Notes under the pieces: generated by a model | Told to the model about the DNA's origin: nothing | The model's input: only the letters and a program-made list of their open reading frames with translations | Database searches by the model: none | Virus record (IMG/VR): IMGVR_UViG_3300048930_000169 | Span: 1 to 28,859 of that record | Length of the DNA: 28,859 nucleotides | Source of the DNA: a virus | Reading direction: 5' to 3' (one strand) | Program-made: the position numbers and the translations under genes | Shown: positions 151 through 13,687 of the stretch, piece by piece | Layout of the letters: each line of letters opens with the position of its first letter | Position numbering within the stretch: the first letter of the stretch is position 1

Positions 151-1089
151 CTAAATCGCCCCAATAGAAGCCAGAGCGGCCCGTACAGCGTCTTTCTGCG
201 CTTGGGTGAAGGAAACGCCCACTGAAACAGGAATAGGCTCTGTGGGCGCTTCTACGGGCGTTGCGAACACCCTCGCGCGCCATGCCGCAACGAGAGCAGC
301 TTCTTGTGAGGGATCAATCGCCGTATTGAGATAATTGTCCACTGGTGCCAGTTTGGAGAATGTGTCTAGTTTATACTGCTTGGCTTTGTTGCCTTTGAGA
401 GTAACTCCCGTCCCGGTTCGCGTGATTTTGGAAAGCAGGTCCGTAAAGCTTACAACCTCGTTATCTTCGCACCCCCCCCGACCAGACACGGTAATGCCAT
501 TTGCCAAGCCGATGACAAGGTTTCGGCTTACTTCCAGATTGATGTAGCTAGACCACCCCTTGCTGTTCGCCCCCGCTGGGTCTTGATAGCGCACCGAGAT
601 GCCTTGAAACTTGTCTCCGTTGCCACGATGAGCGCAATTGTCGATAATCTTAAGCCCATCTGAGGGACGGCCAAGGTGCGGATTCCACGGCTGCACTGCG
701 TCAGGATGCTTGCCCAGATTAACCCGGAAATCGGTGAACTCGTTGCGGCTGATAGTCACGTTATCGGTGTCGAGTGGGCGAATGCCGTCTTCGTTCAACT
801 CATGGAACAGGTTCGCGTCAATGAGACTGTCCGTCACATTATCCAGCGTCAGGCCGATGGATCCGCGCGAAACATCATTGCCGGTGAAGCTGATGCCCTT
901 GCTGTTGCTGATTTGCACGGGTCGATTAGTGAGCATGCGGACATCACCTGCCCCTTGATCCCCTACCTTCATATTGCGGATGATGACGTTCTCACACCCG
1001 TCAAGGGTTATGCTGTCCGCTACGCCGTTCTCAATGATGAGAGGAGCGTCGGCGCGGTATTTCTTGTCCTTAAAGGTGATGGCGGTCAT
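151..1089 (-). CDS. Beta-helix receptor-binding or depolymerase-like protein, 312 aa
   Basis: The first two thirds read as short parallel-beta-helix coils with regularly spaced Asn/Asp turns (NVIIRN, GISFTGN, NVTISRN). Residues 128-133 read HPDAVQ, an H-x-D-x-x-Q motif that also occurs in the 998-aa spike upstream. A short alpha-helical tail closes the protein (about 292-312). The ATG overlaps the preceding stop as ATGA, so the two are translated together. I infer a virion-attached accessory spike or polysaccharide-binding/cleaving protein. No catalytic residues can be assigned safely. The coding strand carries a run of eight G (472-479) at residues 204-206, where a one-base slip would remove the last third. 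It is the last gene before the repeats at the left edge. Confidence 0.8.
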   Translation of the reverse strand: MTAITFKDKKYRADAPLIIENGVADSITLDGCENVIIRNMKVGDQGAGDVRMLTNRPVQISNSKGISFTGNDVSRGSIGLTLDNVTDSLIDANLFHELNEDGIRPLDTDNVTISRNEFTDFRVNLGKHPDAVQPWNPHLGRPSDGLKIIDNCAHRGNGDKFQGISVRYQDPAGANSKGWSSYINLEVSRNLVIGLANGITVSGRGGCEDNEVVSFTDLLSKITRTGTGVTLKGNKAKQYKLDTFSKLAPVDNYLNTAIDPSQEAALVAAWRARVFATPVEAPTEPIPVSVGVSFTQAQKDAVRAALASIGAI

Positions 1090-4082
1090 GCGTATGTCCC
1101 TGTTTGCTTGGTCATAGACCCACCGCCGTAGCCAAGGTTTGTAATGCCTCCGGTCGCGTTCCAGGAATTTGCCGTGCTGCCGTCTGTTGCCCCGACCGGG
1201 CCTTGAATAAAGACCATAGGCTGCGTGAGCACGCCAGTAACCGAACCATCTCCGTTTACGCTGAGCATATCTTTGGTGAAGGCGTTGATCACATCAACAT
1301 CTGTAATGTCTGGAATATTAGCCGGATCTTCATAAAGCTCAATCCAAAGTGCTTGCATAGAACCATCCATATTTGTGGAAGTTCCTGCATAGACATCGAA
1401 CAAGCCAATACCTGACGCACCGAAGAAATTGCCTATCGTAAAGGTCTTGGTGCCATTTGTATTGAATACCTCGGTCCCGCCATGAGTGCACAGGGCGTAG
1501 TCTTTGACACACTTGACCACAGTGTCATTGCTTGTCTGAGTAAAGTCGCCAGCAAAAATATATGTGTGCCTGTTGGTCGTATCGGTGCCTATGTCAAAGT
1601 TGACGATAGTTCCGCCTTCTGTGCTGGTATTACCAAGCCACTGGGTCGAGAGCCTTCCAGAACCCAAGGTGGACAACCCAATCTTAGCATAGCCATTAGT
1701 GCCTTTATCCGCCATAACGATTGCGCCATTTGTGAAAGCATCAAACTTCACACCGATGAGAGCAACAACAAAGCCCTTAAACGTGCGTGCATCAGAGGGC
1801 TTCGCTATACGGCTGTATGCTGTGGTTTGGTTATCCGCTGTCGTGTAGAAAGTTGCGGGCGCAGTGATACTCCTGAAAGAATAATCCACACCATCAAGCG
1901 CCACGGTAGAAAGCTTTTGTGTCAGTGCAGATGCAGAGGTAGTGTCCTGAATAACCAAATCCTGCCCCGCCAGCATCGTGCTAGAGCCTGTTGCAATAGC
2001 ACGAATGACCGTCCCGTTCGATGGGTCATATGTCCCCCATGACACACCCGAAGCTGGAACAACATTGATAGAAGTCCCTTCAATTCCGTGCACATAAGCC
2101 CGCGCCGAGGTCACTGTGGCGCTTGTGGTCAAACCTGCCTGATCTTGGAACGCGGTCCATACCTCATGCTCCATATCCGCCGACATCATCGCCGCCAGCG
2201 TTGTATATTGCGTACCTCTAGTGCCTGAAGATACCCCCTTTTCCGCAAGCGCAAGGAAATGGTCATTGACCGTTGGGGTGGCCCTGTTCAAATCAGCAAA
2301 CAGTGGACCAGTCAGAGATGACCTACCAACCGCGCTGTAAATCGGAAGATCAGTAGTATTGTCGCCAGCCGTAATAATCGGAGCGGCTTGACTGGTCGAG
2401 CTAAGCCCCTCGGCAATCATATTTTCAACCCTGATCGGGCCTACAATTGTACTATTGCCAGATGGCTTTGCATTGATGCCTAGCGTTACCCTCGGGAAGT
2501 TGCTGGAATTAGGGCGCGAACCTTCTGGGCTAATATAGACGCTATTCTTGAACCATGATTGGCGCTGGCTGTTAGCAAAGAATCCCTTGTTGGCCGAAGC
2601 GACAAGGTTCTCGAATGATTTTAGGCCGACAAGCACATTGGTATAAAGCATCTGGAAGAATTGGTGCTGGAAAATACCTCTGCACAAAAGATTCACGGAC
2701 GCGAGATTTAGGCCAATGTTCCATCCATATTGACCGGTTTCCGAAGACGGTGCGGTGTTACCGTAGGCTTGAGACGCGTCGCCATGGCTATCGAAGCTGT
2801 CAGATACACCAGGAAGTGGATCAAGTTCAATATTTCGCAGGGCTGTCACCCTGACGCGGCCATTAGAGTCCCAGTTATACCGCAGATAATCATGATACAT
2901 TCGCTCGATCTGATTGTCACAGATTATCATATGGCGACGGGCGCTGGCATTGGCCGTGACTCTTATGCCATCAAACATGTCGTGAATGTAATTATCTGAT
3001 ACGGTAACGGTCGTTCCTGTCCAACCTGCCACATATACAGCCGATGGCATGAAGTATGCGCGGTTATACGCCGCATATGTAGCATCGCCCCAGCCGGTAT
3101 AGATCCGCGTTCCGGTGACTTCAGAGATGAAAATGCTATTTCCGCTATCGCCTACGGTGGACGTATAGGTGTTATTCCCCGATGCTGTTACGCTCATCTG
3201 ATACGTGCCGACGCCGCCCGGCGTCCCGGTCAATTGAGCGAGAATGGTGACGCTGCCAGCCAACTCGGAGATTGTACCGCGCTTGACCACAGTGTCACCA
3301 ACGGCGATGGATTTTCCCGCATGAACGGTGACATTAAGGACATCTGTTCCGCTTGTCACAGACGCGGTAATCATGCCAACGCGGCTCAGTCTGTTGCCGA
3401 ACGCATTCCAATAATCCGGCGAATTGAAGTCGAGCAGTTTTTCCGTAATGTCAAAAGGCGTATGGCTCGCATCCTTGCCGATATAATACTCATTCCACCG
3501 GAATGATCCATTGAAAGCGCCTGACGCATAGTCGAGATAATTAGGCCGTATTCCGCTGTTCTGGACGCCGATATTCTCCCATGTCTGGTACGAACCGGGC
3601 CACGCATTTGGCGCAGTGGGGAAAAGATCAATCGTCCGCTTGAACCCCCATAGATGGACATCGGAAGAGTATTGAATGAAGCCACGCAAAGTGCAGGGCA
3701 ACGCAAGGCGCCTGGTATATCTGTTACCATCGCCCATGGGGTTTGATGTGTAACTGAAATTCTGCGCGTAGAACGATGCTGGCGCGATATAGATCGTGGA
3801 TGTTGCCTTGGTCGGCAATATCCATGTCAGATCAGTCGTGGTCGAACCATTATTATAGTTCGTGCTTCCAACATCCCAATCCGCCCCATCTGGAACAGCG
3901 ATATAATAATTACCTGAAGGCGCGCTGGATACCAGAGACTTAAGATTAGCGACATCAGTGGCCGTCGCATCAGGCGATGCTGGAAGACTTGTAGGCAATG
4001 TGCCAACCGTTAGGACTGTTGAACCGCCGCCACCAACCCTCTGCCCCGAAAGCGACAGTCCAAGACTAAGCCCCATGCTCAT
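1086..4082 (-). CDS. Large tail spike, 998 aa, beta-helix with inserted domain and lectin-like C-terminus
   Basis: A Gly/Ser-rich N-terminus (1-25) probably anchors it to the particle. A beta-helix-type region follows (roughly 130-235 and 335-600, with turns such as SDNYIHDMFDGI) containing H-G-D-A-S-Q at 433-438. It is interrupted at about 236-310 by a beta-rich module with the GTPGGVGTYQMSV signature seen in many phage structural proteins. The C-terminal third (about 750-920) resembles a laminin-G/concanavalin-like sheet fold. These traits fit a host-range tail spike that binds or degrades surface polysaccharide; the enzymatic activity is inference. GGGGA lies six bases before the ATG. The leader upstream holds a long inverted repeat (4117-4186). 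It ends in an ATGA overlap with the 312-aa gene. Confidence 0.85.
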   Translation of the reverse strand: MSMGLSLGLSLSGQRVGGGGSTVLTVGTLPTSLPASPDATATDVANLKSLVSSAPSGNYYIAVPDGADWDVGSTNYNNGSTTTDLTWILPTKATSTIYIAPASFYAQNFSYTSNPMGDGNRYTRRLALPCTLRGFIQYSSDVHLWGFKRTIDLFPTAPNAWPGSYQTWENIGVQNSGIRPNYLDYASGAFNGSFRWNEYYIGKDASHTPFDITEKLLDFNSPDYWNAFGNRLSRVGMITASVTSGTDVLNVTVHAGKSIAVGDTVVKRGTISELAGSVTILAQLTGTPGGVGTYQMSVTASGNNTYTSTVGDSGNSIFISEVTGTRIYTGWGDATYAAYNRAYFMPSAVYVAGWTGTTVTVSDNYIHDMFDGIRVTANASARRHMIICDNQIERMYHDYLRYNWDSNGRVRVTALRNIELDPLPGVSDSFDSHGDASQAYGNTAPSSETGQYGWNIGLNLASVNLLCRGIFQHQFFQMLYTNVLVGLKSFENLVASANKGFFANSQRQSWFKNSVYISPEGSRPNSSNFPRVTLGINAKPSGNSTIVGPIRVENMIAEGLSSTSQAAPIITAGDNTTDLPIYSAVGRSSLTGPLFADLNRATPTVNDHFLALAEKGVSSGTRGTQYTTLAAMMSADMEHEVWTAFQDQAGLTTSATVTSARAYVHGIEGTSINVVPASGVSWGTYDPSNGTVIRAIATGSSTMLAGQDLVIQDTTSASALTQKLSTVALDGVDYSFRSITAPATFYTTADNQTTAYSRIAKPSDARTFKGFVVALIGVKFDAFTNGAIVMADKGTNGYAKIGLSTLGSGRLSTQWLGNTSTEGGTIVNFDIGTDTTNRHTYIFAGDFTQTSNDTVVKCVKDYALCTHGGTEVFNTNGTKTFTIGNFFGASGIGLFDVYAGTSTNMDGSMQALWIELYEDPANIPDITDVDVINAFTKDMLSVNGDGSVTGVLTQPMVFIQGPVGATDGSTANSWNATGGITNLGYGGGSMTKQTGTYA

Positions 4083-4116: not shown

Positions 4117-4186
4117 GTGACGCGGCGCGGCTACGGACTTTGAGCGCGTGAGCCGAAGCAAGCTGCAACACTGAGGCCCGCGTCAC
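4117..4186. repeat. 9-bp inverted repeat with inner stem between HNH gene and tail spike
   Basis: GTGACGCGG (4117-4125) and CCGCGTCAC (4178-4186) are perfect inverted partners 52 bases apart. CGGCT and AGCCG inside them can form an inner stem. The outer arm covers the stop codon of the endonuclease gene (4183-4185), and no T-run follows, so an ordinary terminator is unlikely. It could be a folded mRNA leader of the tail spike or a mark left by endonuclease-gene insertion. Confidence 0.6.
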
Positions 4187-4788
4187 TCCACACCCCCGGC
4201 GATCATGTCATATTGAGCGGGAACAGCCTTTTTCTCTTTGCCATGCCGCTCTTCAAAGCCGTATTTTACTTCAGCCGCGCTTCTCGCGGCGACAGCGTCC
4301 CCGAAGTCAAGGTATGACCCCAAGCAGATCCGCCGCCTGTCGGCCCTAATATGCGCGATCCACTTCCTTTGATGTTTGCACCAGTAAACGCCGGTCACGC
4401 CTGATTTATTATCTCGGCGCATCGGCATGTTTTTGTGGTTATCCACATGCTTGCAATCTCGTAGATTGGCGATGCGGTTATCCTGCTTGTCGCCGTTAAG
4501 ATGATCGATCTCGCCGCTTGGCCACTCGCCATATACAATCGCCCAAATCACTCTGTGCGAAATACTACTCACACCCATTATCGCGCCAGTTAGATATCCC
4601 AATCTACTTACTTGCTTGAACGCCTCCTTGCCAGCAAACCGGCGATTCCAACTCGCATACACAGATACCCTCGTTGGCCCCCGAAACGATGAAAAGGGCC
4701 TCTCTTTCCAAAATAGCTTTCCGGTTTTTTGATCGTAGTGCAGAAGTTGGCGACACAGTTCAGGCGTGATATTGAGTCGGTTAGCCAT
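4183..4788 (-). CDS. HNH homing endonuclease with AP2 DNA-binding domain, 201 aa
   Basis: Residues 78-110 hold the HNH core: H78, the DH pair at 95-96 and Asn at 104 and 108 (IDHLNGDKQDNRIANLR). Residues about 129-175 match an AP2-type DNA-binding domain (SGVTGVYW, then WIAHIRA and LGSYLDF). Such free-standing genes cut cognate DNA and spread by repair. I start at the ATG at 4788 because the protein then opens MANRLNITPE, as family members do. The reading frame stays open to 4887, where ATGA overlaps the Rz stop, but that extension looks unrelated. It sits between lysis and tail genes, a common landing place, and I see no interrupted gene or obvious intron around it. Function is clear by family; the target is unknown. 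Confidence 0.85.
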   Translation of the reverse strand: MANRLNITPELCRQLLHYDQKTGKLFWKERPFSSFRGPTRVSVYASWNRRFAGKEAFKQVSRLGYLTGAIMGVSSISHRVIWAIVYGEWPSGEIDHLNGDKQDNRIANLRDCKHVDNHKNMPMRRDNKSGVTGVYWCKHQRKWIAHIRADRRRICLGSYLDFGDAVAARSAAEVKYGFEERHGKEKKAVPAQYDMIAGGVE

Positions 4789-4883
4789 GACGAAATAATC
4801 CTTCGTTTTGGTTAGGGCTGGGAGCAGTGTTCGAGCACTGTTCCCGCCCGCTAATTCTACCATTTTCTGATGAGAAGAACAAA

Positions 4884-5378
4884 TCATAACCCGTTATTCT
4901 CGCTGGAATCTTCAATCATTTTGTAGGTTCGGACGCAGGCGTTGTGTCTTGCTTGGAGTTCGGCAGCGGCGGCAGCGTACCTTGTAAGAAACTCCGCATC
5001 ATCCCTTGCCAGTCCCAATCCTGTTCCTGCACATCCATTACCGGAGGCTTCGGCGGTGCCGGGGGCGGGGCGACGTGGACGGTTCCGCAGCTCGGCAAGA
5101 GCAGCGTCGCGCTCATGAGCAATGTCCTTGATTTCATCGTCTCGTTCCTTCTGGATCTGGTAGGCAGTCACCTTCCATGTGTTCTCGGTCGCCCGCCAAC
5201 GCTTGTCGGTTTCGGCTGTAACCGCCGCCATGACCGCTATCTTGGCTGTCAGCTTCTCCAGCGCCGTCTGCGTCCATGACAGGCGTAATGTCTGGATGCC
5301 TGCGAAGATGGCGAGCAAGCCAATGCCCAGCAGCTTCCAGTGCGAGCGGGCGAAGGTGAGGATGGCGAGAGGGGTCAC
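4884..5378 (-). CDS. Rz-like inner-membrane spanin (i-spanin), 164 aa
   Basis: An N-terminal membrane segment (about 13-30, WKLLGIGLLAIFAGI) is followed by a long charged helix likely to form a coiled coil (about 35-100), the plan of lambda Rz. It would span the periplasm and, with the nested lipoprotein Rz1, fuse inner and outer membranes at the last step of lysis. The GTG at 5378 forms a GTGA overlap with the upstream stop and has GGTGG four bases before it, which decided the start; an ATG at 5390 in the same frame is the alternative. The presence of Rz/Rz1 shows a Gram-negative host. Confidence 0.8.
   Translation of the reverse strand: MTPLAILTFARSHWKLLGIGLLAIFAGIQTLRLSWTQTALEKLTAKIAVMAAVTAETDKRWRATENTWKVTAYQIQKERDDEIKDIAHERDAALAELRNRPRRPAPGTAEASGNGCAGTGLGLARDDAEFLTRYAAAAAELQARHNACVRTYKMIEDSSENNGL
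4916..5137 (-). CDS. Rz1-like outer-membrane lipoprotein spanin (o-spanin), 73 aa, nested inside Rz
   Basis: The protein opens with a basic start and a hydrophobic stretch ending in a lipobox, L14-P15-S16-Cys17, the signal-peptidase II cleavage and lipidation site. A proline-rich segment follows (APPPAPPKPP, about 23-32), as in Rz1 proteins. The frame lies wholly inside the Rz gene in a different register, the fully embedded arrangement known from lambda. Together, lipobox, proline richness and position make this a firm call. The mature protein would sit in the inner leaflet of the outer membrane and bind the end of Rz. Confidence 0.85.
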   Translation of the reverse strand: MKSRTLLMSATLLLPSCGTVHVAPPPAPPKPPVMDVQEQDWDWQGMMRSFLQGTLPPLPNSKQDTTPASEPTK

Positions 5379-6744: not shown

Positions 6745-8592
6745 TCAGTTCACGCTTCTGCCTGTTTCATACCAAGCGGACCCGTCCGAATATAAAGAGA
6801 TGGTATCTTTGTCGGTGGCGGAGAAATTCGCCGCTCCGGCGAGGTTCATGTTGCCGCCAGTGATGACGGTTAGAGAGCCTCCAAACTTGAGTGTGACGGT
6901 CTTGCCTGCATAAGCTGCGACAGGGGAGAGCGTGCCGCAGTTCGTCGTTCCGGTTACGGTCCAATGAAGTGATTCGCCGTCCAGAACAATGGACGAGCCA
7001 GACGCTACAGATGGAACATATGGGTTGGTCGCTATAGTCGTGTTGCTGGCGAATGAACAGTTGCGATGTCTTAACTGGACTGTGGTCGCATAATTATCGA
7101 ATACAGTCGTGAAGGCCCGGAAGTCCGTGCCATCGACTACTACCTTGCCAGCATTAGCGGTTGTCTTGATCGCACTGGCCCCGGTACGCATGAAGCCTTC
7201 GGATATATCGACATCGCCGTCATCGACGAGAACCGCTGCCGTGGTCGTGGACCATATGGATGGATTGACGATTGCGGCCACAATCCTCACTGAGGAATAA
7301 TTGCTGTTTACATTGATGCCATATTGTTTTGCTGCGATCTGTGGGCTGATAATGCGAATTTCCCGCGCGCTTCCATCAACCTGAAAACCTATAGCCCCAT
7401 CACTCAGCCCAGAGACGTGATCCGCACCGCAATTCGTGAAAGACACAGAGTTTACAGAATCTGCGGCCCTGAACTCGATAGCGTGGCCGTAACCAAAACA
7501 ATGAGCGACATCGCACCAGTCGTTGATGGTCCCGCCGATGTGTATGAATGTACCAGAACGCAATAGCTGTGCATTATTTGTTTCCACCGCCGAACCTACG
7601 GTGACAAAAGGCCAGCCATGCACGTAATAGATACTGGACGTATCAGCTGCATTTTCCAGATAGATGCCATTCAGGCAGTCCAGATTTACGCGATTGATGT
7701 TTACCCTGTTGGCGCGATGATTGGATGCCAAGGTGCGGATTCCATACTGAAACCCAAGGATCGTGAGATATTCCAATGTCGCATCGCAGGAATAATCCCC
7801 GAGCGTAATAGCTGAACCGGCGAATGTCGAAGCTACTTGTGCAGCCGTGATATTGAATTGAAGACCCTTGCGAAATATCGCCAGATTACGGATGCCCGAG
7901 GCTGAATTGACGGTGATCGTATAGGTAGGATCGACATATAGCGCCGGAGTCCATCCCAGAAGATTGCTCTCGGCATCATTGAAATCGCCGCGATCTCCAT
8001 TCGCTTCGCCTTCGATTATCACATTGTCGGGGATATTGAGATTGGCCCCGATCAGGCACTTGAAACCCATGTCGATGATAACGCGACCACCAGACGCCCC
8101 AAGAGAGGTTATTGCAAAAGCTATAGCGGAAGCATCATTCGTCCCTGTGCCTGCGCCGGTATCATAATCGCCGACAGCTCCGTAATCGCTGGCGTAGACC
8201 GTCTTTTGAAGGCGCTTACCAACCGTCCCTGCGGCGTATGCGGCGGCGTGGGAGAAGCCTACAAGCCCAGCCCCCTTGCCCGATGCGGTGGAGGCGAGGT
8301 CGGCGAGAGCCCCGCCGATGTCATCTCGCGTTCTGGTAAACGAACCATCAGCCGGTTGGAATTTTACCGTATAGAATGTATCATCGAGCCAGATCGCGCC
8401 CCAGCGGCCATTGGCATCCGCCACAACTGGGTTAGCATTGGCATTTGTGCCAGCTTCAGCATCGGCTTTTGTCGGATATGTATTCTTGAGGGTTGTCGTT
8501 CCGTTGTCGTAAAACGTCAGTTTCGCCCCAGAGAGCGAAGCTCCTGAGCTATCATTTGCGGCAAATATGCCAGTATCGAATAGATACGCCAT
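6745..8592 (-). CDS. Tail spike with N-terminal particle-binding domain and pectate-lyase-like beta-helix, 615 aa
   Basis: Residues 1-95 resemble the N-terminal domain of many phage tail fibres (GAKLTFYDNGTTT, then PVVADANGRW), which attaches the spike to the virion. After a linker, VYASDYGAVGDYDTG with NDASAIAFAI opens a pectate-lyase-3-type right-handed beta-helix (about 132-530). The last part is a small beta domain. It should recognise and perhaps cleave a surface polysaccharide; the enzyme activity is inferred from the fold. The start is well set by the family-like opening MAYLFDTGIF, yet no good ribosome binding site precedes it. Instead the ATG lies inside the base of a long stem-loop (8589-8637), suggesting translational control or strict dependence on RNA structure. 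Confidence 0.88.
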   Translation of the reverse strand: MAYLFDTGIFAANDSSGASLSGAKLTFYDNGTTTLKNTYPTKADAEAGTNANANPVVADANGRWGAIWLDDTFYTVKFQPADGSFTRTRDDIGGALADLASTASGKGAGLVGFSHAAAYAAGTVGKRLQKTVYASDYGAVGDYDTGAGTGTNDASAIAFAITSLGASGGRVIIDMGFKCLIGANLNIPDNVIIEGEANGDRGDFNDAESNLLGWTPALYVDPTYTITVNSASGIRNLAIFRKGLQFNITAAQVASTFAGSAITLGDYSCDATLEYLTILGFQYGIRTLASNHRANRVNINRVNLDCLNGIYLENAADTSSIYYVHGWPFVTVGSAVETNNAQLLRSGTFIHIGGTINDWCDVAHCFGYGHAIEFRAADSVNSVSFTNCGADHVSGLSDGAIGFQVDGSAREIRIISPQIAAKQYGINVNSNYSSVRIVAAIVNPSIWSTTTAAVLVDDGDVDISEGFMRTGASAIKTTANAGKVVVDGTDFRAFTTVFDNYATTVQLRHRNCSFASNTTIATNPYVPSVASGSSIVLDGESLHWTVTGTTNCGTLSPVAAYAGKTVTLKFGGSLTVITGGNMNLAGAANFSATDKDTISLYSDGSAWYETGRSVN

Positions 8593-8637
8593 CCAGACAG
8601 TCCAAACCGAATTTCAGGTTTGAGGTCTGTCTGATGG
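8589..8637 (-). promoter_or_regulatory. Long stem-loop covering the start codon of the 615-aa tail spike
   Basis: The two arms pair in three helices: CCAT (8589-8592) with ATGG (8634-8637), CAGACAG (8594-8600) with CTGTCTG (8627-8633) and CAAACC (8603-8608) with GGTTTG (8617-8622). That is 17 base pairs with one bulged base and one internal loop. The first helix contains the start codon of the tail spike (8590-8592). No T-run follows and no clear ribosome binding site lies in the open. A translation-controlling leader is the simplest reading. Confidence 0.65.
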
Positions 8638-8640
8638 AAA

Positions 8641-8673
8641 GTGCGGCCCTCAACCGCACGGCGGACATGCCGC
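8641..8673 (-). promoter_or_regulatory. Two further hairpins in the tail-spike leader
   Basis: GTGCGG (8641-8646) pairs with CCGCAC (8654-8659) across a seven-base loop. GCGG (8661-8664) pairs with CCGC (8670-8673) across five bases. With the start-codon hairpin they make three stem-loops in a row over 85 bases. The rest of the 8593-8806 gap shows no convincing gene: an 18-codon frame (8775-8719) lacks a ribosome binding site. Confidence 0.5.
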
Positions 8674-8806
8674 TTCCAGAAATATGCTTACCATGTTTGC
8701 GCGAGAAAGCAAAGCCTACTAAAGCAATGGGGTGAGCCTTACTTTCCTCATGAACATCACCGCCTTGTCTGCCATATTCACGCGCAGCAAATGGCTTACC
8801 GGTGGG

Positions 8807-11446
8807 TTATTGGCCCTGACCGTTTTCGTTATCTGATGCTGCGGCTGTCGTTGGCGCATTGTCGTTGGCACCGCTAAGCAGCCACCTTTCAACCGCGCTC
8901 AGTTCATTCGCGATAGCTGGGTTCTTTGCCGCCATCTTGCCGAGTTTTGAAACATGAGCAGCCATCTGTTCACTACGAGCAGGAGCGTTAACCAGCCAGC
9001 GTGCGAAAACTGGCGATGCGAGCAATTTACCCAATGGGCGCTGCACAAGGACCGGGGCGGCGGTGAGTGCAGCCAATAATGGCTTCCCAGACGCCAGTAG
9101 CGTCGCAGAGCCGGAAACCGCCCCCATTGTCGCTAACAAGGCGTTGATGCCGCCTGTATTGGACGAATTGGCGTATTGCTGCGCATTACGCGAACCCTCA
9201 GCAACCTTGGCGATATCATCCAATACCGAACGCTGCTGCGGATTGAATAGTGCAACTTTGGCGCGTTGGTCGATCTTGTTCCAGTTTGTAAGGAACGTAG
9301 CAAGCGAAAATGCCTCACCAGAAGCATCTTGCTTGCCCGGGGTCGCCTTGCCGATCATGTCAATCATTGCGCCAGAAACGATGTCCGCCTCGTCTTTGGG
9401 CAGTGAGCGCATCATCTGGCCGATGCGCTGGCTCTCACCGCGTGTTGTGGACCAGTTCACAATCTGATTGAATGCGGCCTGAGCGCCCTTGTCCTTATCC
9501 TTGCCGAGAATGGCGGTTGCGACGTTCTCCAGCCTATCCTGACGTGCGCGCCAATAGGTGTTGGCCCGCTGGAATTTCGCCAAAGCCTCCGGACCCTGTG
9601 CGCGTGCCGTCGCCTCCATATCCTGCGACAAAGAGCCGTAGAGCGCGCGTAGATCAGATTGGGCGGTATCCTGCTGTAGGATCATGCCATCGAGTTTTTC
9701 GCCAACCAAAGAGCGGAATTGCTTGAGGTCATTCCACGACAGCCCACCCTTCGACAATGCCTGCTCATACGCTGCCAGTTTTTTGTCGGCCACCAATCCC
9801 GCCAATTCAGGGTTTGACGTGATTTTGTTATTCAGCTTGGAGAGTGTCGCCTTGGTTTCCGAAAGACTGGACGGTGCATCCGGACTGATCGGGATATCCT
9901 CATAAAGCTTACCGCCCTTGGTTTCGGTCGCGCCAATCCATTTATCCATACCGCGCTGCGCCGCCCGTCCGGTAGCGTATCCGTCCGCCTTTACTCCACC
10001 CGCCGCGTTCGCTGCGGCATCCGCGACGCCCTCGACAAGCTTCTGACTGCGATTCACAATCGGTCCAGCCCCAAGGGGGGTTTGCGCCGTTCCAGACGTG
10101 ATCTTGCCAACGGTAGGGCCGCCAACATCGGCAGGCAAAGGCTCGACATTCAGCCTGTCCGCCGCCGCCATTATATCAGCGCCACCACCCCCATCAGGCG
10201 GAAGTTTCTTTGGTGCGAAGCGTTCTAACAGTTTCCCGCCACCGTAGCCAAGGCCATAGCCAGACAACGCGCCAAGCGTTCCGCCTTTTACGCGATCTTC
10301 CAAAGTATCGCCAGAGCCGACGCCGGAGACGCCACCCATAATGCCGCCGACCTTGCCCAATTCCTGAGCAGTCTTTGCTCCGCGACCGAACGGGATCAAC
10401 GCGCCGCCCGTAAGCTGTCCTGCGATATTGGCGATAGGATGTTCTGACGCCATCGCGTCTTGAGCAAGCCGCGTCTGCCCGGTATCACCCCCGAATATCG
10501 GCGCAAGTTCATCCATGAAGCCGCCAGAAAGAACGTCGGCAGCACCACCAAAATAGGAGCCAGCAGCACTGTTCGCCATCGCGCCTATGGCAGACGCCTC
10601 TTTTTTGCCGATTGGCGTTATCTGGAAATCTGCCTGTGGATTGCCAGAATCCCTGCTTTTCAGAGCCTCATCAAGATCGGGACCGAAGCCACCACGCCCG
10701 AATTTCTTGGCGAGATCATCGAACTGCTGGCGCGTTCCGCCAGAGCGAAACAACTCATCAGACTGACGCTGAAATTCGCGATCTTCCGGCGTGATAACCT
10801 CACCCGAACCGTCATCGGTGGGCTTGGCTTCGGGGTCCGCTGGCGGCGGAGCGGTGTCGATGAAGTCCGCACCAAACTGCCCTACCGCTGCATCCAGTGC
10901 ATCGGGATCGTACTTATTCCCCCTCAAAACACCGACCTGCCTTTTCAGTGCGTCCTGAATGATCTTCTGGCGAGCAGCAAGGTTCTGCCTAATAATCTTC
11001 GGGTCCATATTTGGCGAAATTGTCGTCGCCTCATAGGCCGCTTTTTCGGTTTCCGTCAGAGCAGAGCCAAAAAGATCGTTTCTGATTTGGTTGTCTACAG
11101 ACTTAAATCGTGACCACCAGTCACGCTGCCCCGGTGTGCCAAAATCACTGTTCAGGCTTTGAATGCTGTTTTCCAAGCCGCCCGTAATGGTGTTACCGGC
11201 GTATTCATCATTGAATGAACCCCCCGCCGTTTTCAGCGTGGAGTAAATGCCGACATTCTTTTCCAGATCCTTGCGTGCCGGTTCCGGCAATGGTTTTCCA
11301 AACGGCTTCAACAAACCCTGTTGGCGGTATGCGTCAAGCTTTGCCTTCACCTTGGCCTTGATTTCAGGCGTGATCGATGGGTCACCTGTTAATCCGCGAC
11401 GCTCGAGCTCAAGGAGTGCATCTGTTTCTTTGGGTTGATCTGGCAT
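8807..11446 (-). CDS. Large ejection (internal virion) protein, 879 aa
   Basis: It is the third and largest of three coupled genes after the acetyltransferase gene, the place and size range of P22 gp16-type ejection proteins. The N-terminal half is charged and helical. Around 290-410 comes a glycine/alanine-rich stretch with repeated small hydrophobic patches (SAIGAMANSAAGSYFGGAAD, then GALSGYGLGYGGG) able to insert in membranes. The C-terminal half is helical and ends with another hydrophobic segment (about 765-810). Such proteins ride in the capsid and leave first to build a channel across the envelope. No lytic transglycosylase motif is evident. The start forms TAATG with the stop of the gene before. 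The assignment rests on position and composition, not on a conserved motif. Confidence 0.75.
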   Translation of the reverse strand: MPDQPKETDALLELERRGLTGDPSITPEIKAKVKAKLDAYRQQGLLKPFGKPLPEPARKDLEKNVGIYSTLKTAGGSFNDEYAGNTITGGLENSIQSLNSDFGTPGQRDWWSRFKSVDNQIRNDLFGSALTETEKAAYEATTISPNMDPKIIRQNLAARQKIIQDALKRQVGVLRGNKYDPDALDAAVGQFGADFIDTAPPPADPEAKPTDDGSGEVITPEDREFQRQSDELFRSGGTRQQFDDLAKKFGRGGFGPDLDEALKSRDSGNPQADFQITPIGKKEASAIGAMANSAAGSYFGGAADVLSGGFMDELAPIFGGDTGQTRLAQDAMASEHPIANIAGQLTGGALIPFGRGAKTAQELGKVGGIMGGVSGVGSGDTLEDRVKGGTLGALSGYGLGYGGGKLLERFAPKKLPPDGGGGADIMAAADRLNVEPLPADVGGPTVGKITSGTAQTPLGAGPIVNRSQKLVEGVADAAANAAGGVKADGYATGRAAQRGMDKWIGATETKGGKLYEDIPISPDAPSSLSETKATLSKLNNKITSNPELAGLVADKKLAAYEQALSKGGLSWNDLKQFRSLVGEKLDGMILQQDTAQSDLRALYGSLSQDMEATARAQGPEALAKFQRANTYWRARQDRLENVATAILGKDKDKGAQAAFNQIVNWSTTRGESQRIGQMMRSLPKDEADIVSGAMIDMIGKATPGKQDASGEAFSLATFLTNWNKIDQRAKVALFNPQQRSVLDDIAKVAEGSRNAQQYANSSNTGGINALLATMGAVSGSATLLASGKPLLAALTAAPVLVQRPLGKLLASPVFARWLVNAPARSEQMAAHVSKLGKMAAKNPAIANELSAVERWLLSGANDNAPTTAAASDNENGQGQ

Positions 11447-12408: not shown

Positions 12409-13214
12409 TATTTACCGAACCCTCCACCAAAGCCATACATGCCAATATCAGTGACATTCTGTATGGCGTTCTGCCATGAGTTCGCGCTGTTCTGATAACC
12501 GGACGCCCGCGCATTCCCAGCATTGGTGTATGCCGTAGAAGCACCGTTCGCATATTGCTGGCCTGCTTGCGCGACTGCGCTTGTCGCGGTCTGGCCTACA
12601 CCAGCGAGCGACGCCAGCCGATTGGCATAGGTATCAAACGCCCCCGCAGCCTCGCCCTGATTAAAGCGATCAAGGGATTTGATTGTAGCCCCACTGTTCC
12701 ACAAACCTCTGGCAGCAGCGGCGCGATTGATCGCCTTCTCGCCTTCCTGCAACCGAAACTGGTAATCGGGAGATTTGTAGAAATCGGCGTAAGGCTCGGC
12801 AGTGCTCGGCGTGGTTCTATAGGGCGTCAAATCGCGTCTAGACCCGTCCTTCGCATAATGATATTCACCGAACTTGCCAATGTTTCCACCGAATATATCG
12901 GATTGCGTTCCTACAACCTGTTTCCAGTTGGAAAGCGCATCGGGGTTCCCCCTGACGTAAGCCTCCCAATCCGTGCTTGTGGATTCAGGCATATTTATGC
13001 CATAAAGGCCAGCAAGCTTCCCTAGCGCGCCATAGCCAACATCACGATAGGGCTTATAATCCTCGCGCGTGGTATCGTAGATATACTTCTGAACCGCAGC
13101 GGATTCCTGCGCAGCCTGAACCTGCGCCTTGGCGGCTTTTTTGGATGCTTTGGATCCAATTAGACCACTGGCAGCAGTTGCGCCCACCAGAGCCAGTGCA
13201 CTACCCAGCGCCAT
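12408..13214 (-). CDS. DNA-transfer (ejection) protein candidate, 268 aa
   Basis: The N-terminus has a hydrophobic Ala/Gly-rich stretch (about 5-20, SALALVGATAASGLIG) followed by an Ala/Lys/Gln helix (SKKAAKAQVQAAQESAA). This opening is typical of phage DNA-transfer proteins of the P22 gp7/gp20 type. The centre has YKPYRDVGYGALGKL, a motif common among such proteins, and RAAAARGLWNSG near 165-176. The C-terminal third is Ala/Gln/Asn-rich. The gene begins as TAATG on the acetyltransferase stop. I judge the family call good though no enzymatic residue is known for it. Confidence 0.78.
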   Translation of the reverse strand: MALGSALALVGATAASGLIGSKASKKAAKAQVQAAQESAAVQKYIYDTTREDYKPYRDVGYGALGKLAGLYGINMPESTSTDWEAYVRGNPDALSNWKQVVGTQSDIFGGNIGKFGEYHYAKDGSRRDLTPYRTTPSTAEPYADFYKSPDYQFRLQEGEKAINRAAAARGLWNSGATIKSLDRFNQGEAAGAFDTYANRLASLAGVGQTATSAVAQAGQQYANGASTAYTNAGNARASGYQNSANSWQNAIQNVTDIGMYGFGGGFGK

Positions 13215-13687
13215 TAACCGAGCCTCTTGATATAGCTATGCTCAGACGCGCGATAGCCACGGCGGCGATACAGGGCACCAACAGCTTCCGGCCTCACCTT
13301 GTCGAGAGCTATCATCGCCCACGACTGCGCTCCTGCGTTCATTGCCGCCAGCTCGAGACAATCCAGAAGGTGCGCCCCAACTCCTTTTCTAGCTTCAGGC
13401 TCGACCCACCAGAACAGTTCTTGGCCCGTGATATGGTTGCAATTGAAATAGAGAGGATACACCAGCCCGCCCGCAATGCCGCAGATCACCCCCTCCCTGA
13501 TTGCAATGAGTACAATGCCGTTAGGATCAGCAATCATGCCCCGGAGCGTGGAGCATATGCTGTCATGATCCCACTCGGCTACGTCTGCCCATTCCGCCTC
13601 ATCAAAGAAACGCGCGCCAATGCGAGCAATCGCGGGAATATCATCAACCGCTGCTGGCCTGATTTCGATGTCGGATGAAAAGCGCAT
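13214..13687 (-). CDS. GNAT-family N-acetyltransferase, 157 aa
   Basis: The fold pattern is that of GNAT enzymes: an N-terminal IEIRPAAVDDIPAIARI strand-helix, a central strand (GIVLIAIREGVICG) and motif A (VEPEARKGVGAHLL, 95-108), which would hold the pyrophosphate of acetyl-CoA. Between the arginine and the GVG there is one residue fewer than in the usual R-x-x-G-x-G loop, so cofactor binding may be altered. Related acetyltransferases occur near tail genes in other phages; their substrate there is not established. It lies directly upstream of the ejection genes and overlaps the first as TAATG. No strong ribosome binding site is seen; an 8-bp hairpin ends five bases before the ATG. Confidence 0.82.
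   Translation of the reverse strand: MRFSSDIEIRPAAVDDIPAIARIGARFFDEAEWADVAEWDHDSICSTLRGMIADPNGIVLIAIREGVICGIAGGLVYPLYFNCNHITGQELFWWVEPEARKGVGAHLLDCLELAAMNAGAQSWAMIALDKVRPEAVGALYRRRGYRASEHSYIKRLG

Follow-up and report, generated by a model that had tools for sequence, protein, structure and literature searches.

Conserved 5' untranslated leader with a predicted pseudoknot at the tail-spike gene of a group of uncultured P22-like podoviruses

The tail-spike gene of the viral contig studied here is preceded by a leader of about 86 nt, a structured 5' untranslated part of the spike mRNA. The contig is IMG/VR record IMGVR_UViG_3300048930_000169, and its positions 1–28,859 (28.9 kb) make up the whole stretch of DNA that was analysed, called the window below. 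Comparison of ten phages gives good support for the leader being a conserved RNA, with helices P0 to P3 and a predicted pseudoknot occurring in a fixed order and at a fixed place between a promoter-like block and the start codon. By its position and computed pairing, the leader would act on the initiation of spike translation.

Tail spikes determine which host a phage infects. To our knowledge, little has been established about the timing and dosing of spike synthesis at the RNA level in short-tailed phages. A leader that covaries across phages with head-closure proteins of about 50% identity, and with spikes that differ past the adaptor, implies selection on RNA control of the spike; the leader probably sets the timing or the amount of spike synthesis.

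The gene order of the window is that of a P22-like podovirus, with a helicase, terminase, portal, capsid, head closure, ejection proteins, spike and endolysin, and no tRNA was found in it. The spike gene (6745–8592, minus strand) encodes 615 aa, of which approximately 90 N-terminal residues form a conserved adaptor; beyond the adaptor, most of the ten phages have spikes unrelated to one another. The start codon is an ATG at 8592–8590 (minus strand), and residues M1, A2 and L4 align with the annotated spike starts of Pseudanabaena phages Pan3 and Pam1. Upstream of the spike lies the gene of an 879-aa ejection protein from a P22-like injectosome region (8807–11446, minus strand), which is the upstream neighbour of the spike also in the related contigs where this was checked.

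A minus-strand fold of positions 8560–8700 had a minimum free energy of −50.8 kcal/mol (z = −3.4), and none of 200 shuffled sequences folded as well. The three hairpins proposed in a preliminary description of this DNA were recovered at their positions. All leader elements are on the minus strand. P0 (8661–8673) has the form GCGG-CATGT-CCGC, and its stem is paired in 10/10 leaders by hand segmentation. P1 (8641–8659), identified by folding and comparison, pairs GTGCGG with CCGCAC around the loop TTGAGGG, in which GNGGG is conserved. P2 was identified in the same manner and is formed by a 5' strand, CCATCAGACAG (8627–8637), containing a conserved CAGA, and a 3' strand, CTGTCT-G-GATGG (8589–8600), that includes the start codon. 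P3 (8604–8621), AAACC-TGAAATTC-GGTTT, was defined from the fold and hand segmentation. The segment 8589–8637 had been described as a three-helix arm of 17 bp that carries the ATG; the arm and its ATG stand, but the pair count does not, as the minimum free energy arm has 18 pairs (5 + 6 + 7). Two features had been overlooked: a pseudoknot of 8651–8648 with 8625–8622, and a promoter-like block at 8713–8685. The pseudoknot strands are GAGG in the P1 loop (8648–8651) and the complementary CCUC between P2 and P3 (8622–8625). When the pseudoknot is unformed, P3 grows to 7 bp with the UC of the latter strand.

The proposal that the start region is hidden agrees with a start codon P(unpaired) of 0.06 in the window. 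The spike had also been said to lack an exposed ribosome binding site, and the sole Shine-Dalgarno-like stretch, TGGA in the joint between P3 and the P2 3' strand (8601–8604, 8 nt before the start codon), is mostly paired with a P(unpaired) of 0.27. Such an element appears to be undescribed, as previously supposed. No family of Rfam 15 matched anywhere in the window at gathering score, permissive E-values produced nothing convincing or relevant around the window leader or in its homologues, and no description of such an element was found in the open-access literature.

Single-sequence protein searches with the spike N-terminus or the ejection protein returned nothing or only distant phages, and alignments were needed. 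The spike N-terminus was aligned with those of Pan3 and Pam1, and a scan of this alignment against IMG/VR identified 80 spike or fibre loci. Within the 130 bases upstream of the best 20 of these 80, a common layout was found before the spikes of L180, L181, L182, L185 and L199, and a DNA pattern drawn from those leaders led to L268/L298. An exact search of viral contigs with the P1 sequence gave about 100 matches, nearly all of them due to chance; L099/L281, which represent one phage region, were recovered from them by a structural filter and are real. The L281 spike begins with GTG, and that GTG is also inside the P2 3' strand. A search with the exact pseudoknot pattern of the window produced no additional member after the stem filter.

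A covariance model was then built from eight leaders and run on loci that had been fetched by a protein-start pattern, independently of any leader sequence. The known loci were recovered, and two others, L338 at 44.4 bits and L352 at 31.6 bits, were new; neither had been used in model building, and both matches end exactly at the start codon. A control set picked for the P1 sequence itself scored 18–34 bits from P1 alone, and the L352 assignment, at 31.6 bits, rests mainly on position and a manual check. One clear copy of the leader was present in each phage record searched. Among the fetched data, spikes with the N-terminal signature (F/Y)(D/N)..G(I/V)(F/Y)(S/A) were preceded by the leader in 10/10 distinct cases, a count that is partly ascertained as L268/L298 and L099/L281 entered through the leader or P1 sequence.

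The leader was absent from every other spike or fibre relative tested, including more distant ones. Among distant isolated phages, it was not present in Pan3, Pam1, Pam5, VSN-002, P26218, VvAW1, PBR31 and others; Pan3 and Pam1 have ordinary terminators at the corresponding place. No match was obtained in 385 alphaproteobacterial genomes under strict filters and with no positive control. One weak match in Gluconacetobacter (L334, E 0.014) was taken as chance, being surrounded by ribosomal-protein-like frames. All ten leaders come from uncultured contigs of the P22-like podovirus type. Their head-closure proteins are 47–52% identical to that of the window, and their terminases, where found, range from 32% to 81%.

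From 5' to 3', each of the ten leaders is composed of the promoter-like block, 16 to 19 nt, P0, P1, P2, P3, P2' and the start codon. In the window the block reads TTTGCT, 17 nt, TAAGCA (8685–8713, minus strand), with a spacer ending in TGG where most relatives have TGC. The 29-nt consensus, TTTgcT-N17-TAgaam, is conserved 16–19 nt upstream of P0 in 10/10 leaders. Among 1472 positions scored with a leave-one-out matrix, the block came first in nine leaders and second in the remaining one; a scan with a strict sigma-70 consensus did not flag it. The block is a putative promoter, with transcription predicted to start near 8678. If so, P0 follows the transcription start by a few bases, and the 5' untranslated region consists almost entirely of the structure. 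A leaderless mRNA arising from a start inside the stem had been raised as an objection; as far as the sequence shows, the block would not give one, being upstream of all hairpins in 10/10 leaders.

The P1 loop is approximately 7–8 nt long and ends in GNGG followed by one or two bases. The 5' strand of P2 carries a conserved CAGA(C)AA, with CCNC directly after it and then P3. The joint between P3 and P2' varies from about 1 to 11 nt across the ten leaders (3 in the window, GGA), with no letter conserved. The P2 3' strand reaches or crosses the start codon in 10/10. The P0 stem occurs as GGGC/GCCC, GCGC/GCGC, GCGC/GCGU, AUGC/GCAU and other variants. By hand segmentation, P0 and P3 pair within each leader and mostly not across leaders, where 22/90 and 11/90 cross-pairings, respectively, are possible. 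In a MAFFT alignment, P1 and P2 contain seven pairs with double changes, a number that none of 500 shuffles reached, and sliding the structure along the alignment lowered the paired share from 88% to 29–39%. With the pseudoknot included, 1/500 and 0/500 shuffles were as high, two rows of that alignment being misregistered. RNAalifold recovered only P1 and P2 from the MAFFT alignment since P3 and the pseudoknot are misregistered in it. Loss of pairing in homologues, named earlier as the result that would speak against the structure, was not observed; the pairing is kept with compensating double changes. As for single sequences, the L181 fold is not better than shuffles (z +0.65) and that of L352 is weakly better.

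The P1-loop GNGG is complementary to the CCNC between P2 and P3 in 10/10 leaders, as GUGG:CCAC in seven and as GAGG:CCUC in the window, L281 and L338. These three are scattered on the head-closure tree, and its starred branches indicate at least two independent switches from U:A to A:U. This natural exchange is a ready-made compensatory test of the pseudoknot. The P1-loop GNGG was also considered as a distant Shine-Dalgarno sequence in the style of T4 gene 25 and ruled out, as it is GUGG in 7/10 leaders.

In computed folds, positions −15 to −1 are mostly paired in 10/10 leaders (mean P(unpaired) 0.07–0.37). A weak Shine-Dalgarno-like tetramer is found 8–9 nt before the start in 8/10; in L185/L199 it stands at a spacing of 5, and in L338 the sequence is just CGAA. 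In the nested fold of the window and of most relatives, a GG shortly before the start codon is paired to the CC of the pseudoknot strand or to its neighbours. When the pseudoknot strands were kept from nested pairing, at a cost of 3.7–7.6 kcal/mol, accessibility of the Shine-Dalgarno-like stretch rose in 7/10 leaders, with P(unpaired) increasing from 0.27 to 0.79 in the window and from 0.00 to 0.51 in L180. The stretch was not freed in L281, L298 and L352. The start codon is nearly fully paired in six leaders in either form and is partly free in both forms in L180, L298, L338 and L352, so that masking is not uniform. A four-pair GNGG:CCNC helix is worth an estimated −7.6 kcal/mol or so before loop penalties by general nearest-neighbour values. 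As this is similar to the cost of giving up the nested pairing, the two forms are, on paper, about equally stable.

There is roughly an even chance that the leader controls translation and that CCNC has two alternative partners in it, the P1 loop and the GG of the Shine-Dalgarno-like stretch. In the closed, nested form, CCNC or its neighbours would pair with this GG, and P2 and P3 would make one long arm. In the open, pseudoknotted form, CCNC would instead pair with the P1-loop GNGG, the Shine-Dalgarno-like stretch would be released, and only the short P2 would be left for the ribosome to open. Co-transcriptional folding, ribosome traffic or a protein of phage or host, for which the spike adaptor domain itself is a candidate, may set the balance. 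The switch, its direction and its trigger, like the control of initiation itself, are inferred.

Among known elements, the translational operator of E. coli rpsO (S15) is unrelated to the leader in sequence, gene and layout. It does contain a pseudoknot, as does the leader (PMC3014915). In the phage T4 gene 32 mRNA leader, unstructured A+U-rich RNA follows a pseudoknot placed 67 nt before the start codon, and the autogenous translational control of this gene may serve as a model for how the spike leader could work (PMC3014915). The T4 and spike elements are both phage mRNA leaders with a pseudoknot upstream of a start codon; the spike leader differs in reaching the start codon, in having three further helices and in belonging to a different gene. 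In T4 genes e, soc, 49 and I-TevI, the Shine-Dalgarno sequence or start codon is sequestered in single hairpins (PMC3014915). The computed pairing likewise places the initiation region of the spike in a helix, whereas the spike leader has a pseudoknot in addition, and all of it is downstream of a conserved promoter-like block of its own. For this last reason, the promoter-choice mechanism of gene e would be inapplicable to a transcript from that block. In T4 tail genes 25 and 38, a hairpin between the Shine-Dalgarno sequence and the AUG promotes initiation (PMC3014915), which again is RNA structure beside the start codon of a phage tail gene; in the spike leader, however, the Shine-Dalgarno-like stretch and AUG are both in or beside a helix.

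A role in mRNA stability or maturation, with no translational switching, is possible but unlikely. P0 and the long arm would keep exonuclease and RNase E off the spike mRNA, or provide an RNase III site. The predicted transcription start a few nucleotides upstream of P0 is what would be expected for a 5'-protecting hairpin, and the nested P2–P3 arm is long and helical; yet protection leaves the conserved CAGA(C)AA strand, the GNGGG loop and the pseudoknot unexplained, as well as the fact that the start codon is where the arm ends in every case.

The topology of the leader also invites comparison with the pistol ribozyme (Rfam RF02679), which has three stems, a pseudoknot from the P1 loop to the left P2–P3 junction, and a right P3–P2 junction of strictly 2 nt, GU (PMC4604425). 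It is doubtful that the leader represents a new catalytic or ligand-gated class of phage RNA with this topology, whose pseudoknotted state would cut itself or flip beside the spike start. Were this true, spike synthesis would be timed by RNA folding and not by a promoter. The narrower idea of an undescribed self-cleaving ribozyme, which would cut in the P3–P2' joint and leave only a very short leader on the spike mRNA, is improbable. The order of P1, P2 and P3 and the P1-loop pseudoknot are as in pistol (PMC4604425), and pistol ribozymes are likewise associated with phages, but the joint of the leader ranges from about 1 to 11 nt with no conserved letters, and the Rfam pistol model did not match it at E-values as permissive as 3–5. 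Membership in the pistol family was rejected on the absence of both the invariant 2-nt junction and an Rfam score. The leader is further set apart by a pseudoknot of four conserved pairs and by being fixed to the spike start codon.

Control by a leader peptide is just as improbable. Here, a short frame running from the P0 loop to a stop in the P1 loop would be translated and thereby open or close P1. The window, L185, L199 and L298 have an AUG in the P0 loop, and five-codon frames that stop in the P1 loop exist in L185, L199 and L298 (AUG) and in L281 (UUG). Against this, a frame of this kind is present in no more than about half of the leaders, no ribosome-binding sequence precedes it, and in the window the frame from the P0 loop (region 8669–8641) continues to 38 codons and crosses the spike start.

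There is very little likelihood that the conserved unit acts as DNA, either as a protein-binding palindrome or as a recombination or cassette border for spike exchange, the latter having been suggested in the preliminary description. Although the C-terminal parts of the spikes vary between phages, protein similarity among the ten crosses the leader into the first 70–140 residues of the spike before it fades, and the ejection gene is found upstream in related contigs, where checked. The suggestion of a border at the leader is thus not upheld; judged from protein similarity, the exchange border is inside the spike gene and not at the hairpins. In addition, P2 tolerates one-sided changes of C-G to U-G and A-U to G-U, and a pseudoknot is meaningless in duplex DNA. 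Chance hairpins, with just the weak folding of the single members L181 and L352 in their favour, can be dismissed: the structure is conserved in ten leaders with compensating changes, and it was recovered blind at the start codon.

Other features were noted in the window and its relatives. In L199, a small lipoprotein-like frame (L199:2143–2367, minus strand) starts MMRSVILIALALTGCAP and has the lipobox LTGC; it lies on the opposite strand, in the gap that separates the ejection gene from the promoter-like block of the spike. Similar opposite-strand frames apparently lie upstream of the spike in L180, L185, L338 and L352, and a clear equivalent is absent from the window. The window encodes a second beta-helix protein of 312 aa downstream of the lysis region (151–1089, minus strand; Pfam Beta_helix), adjoined by a 998-aa protein (1086–4082) with no Pfam or PHROG match. 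An HNH endonuclease (4183–4887, minus strand; Pfam HNH_3) is possibly a free-standing homing-type enzyme, and a GNAT-type acetyltransferase (13214–13687, minus strand) is present within the block of ejection and head-closure genes. The adaptor-bearing protein that follows the leader is only 210 aa in L182, 189 aa in L281 and 71 aa in L352, which suggests that some relatives have the adaptor as a protein of its own, carrying other receptor-binding subunits.
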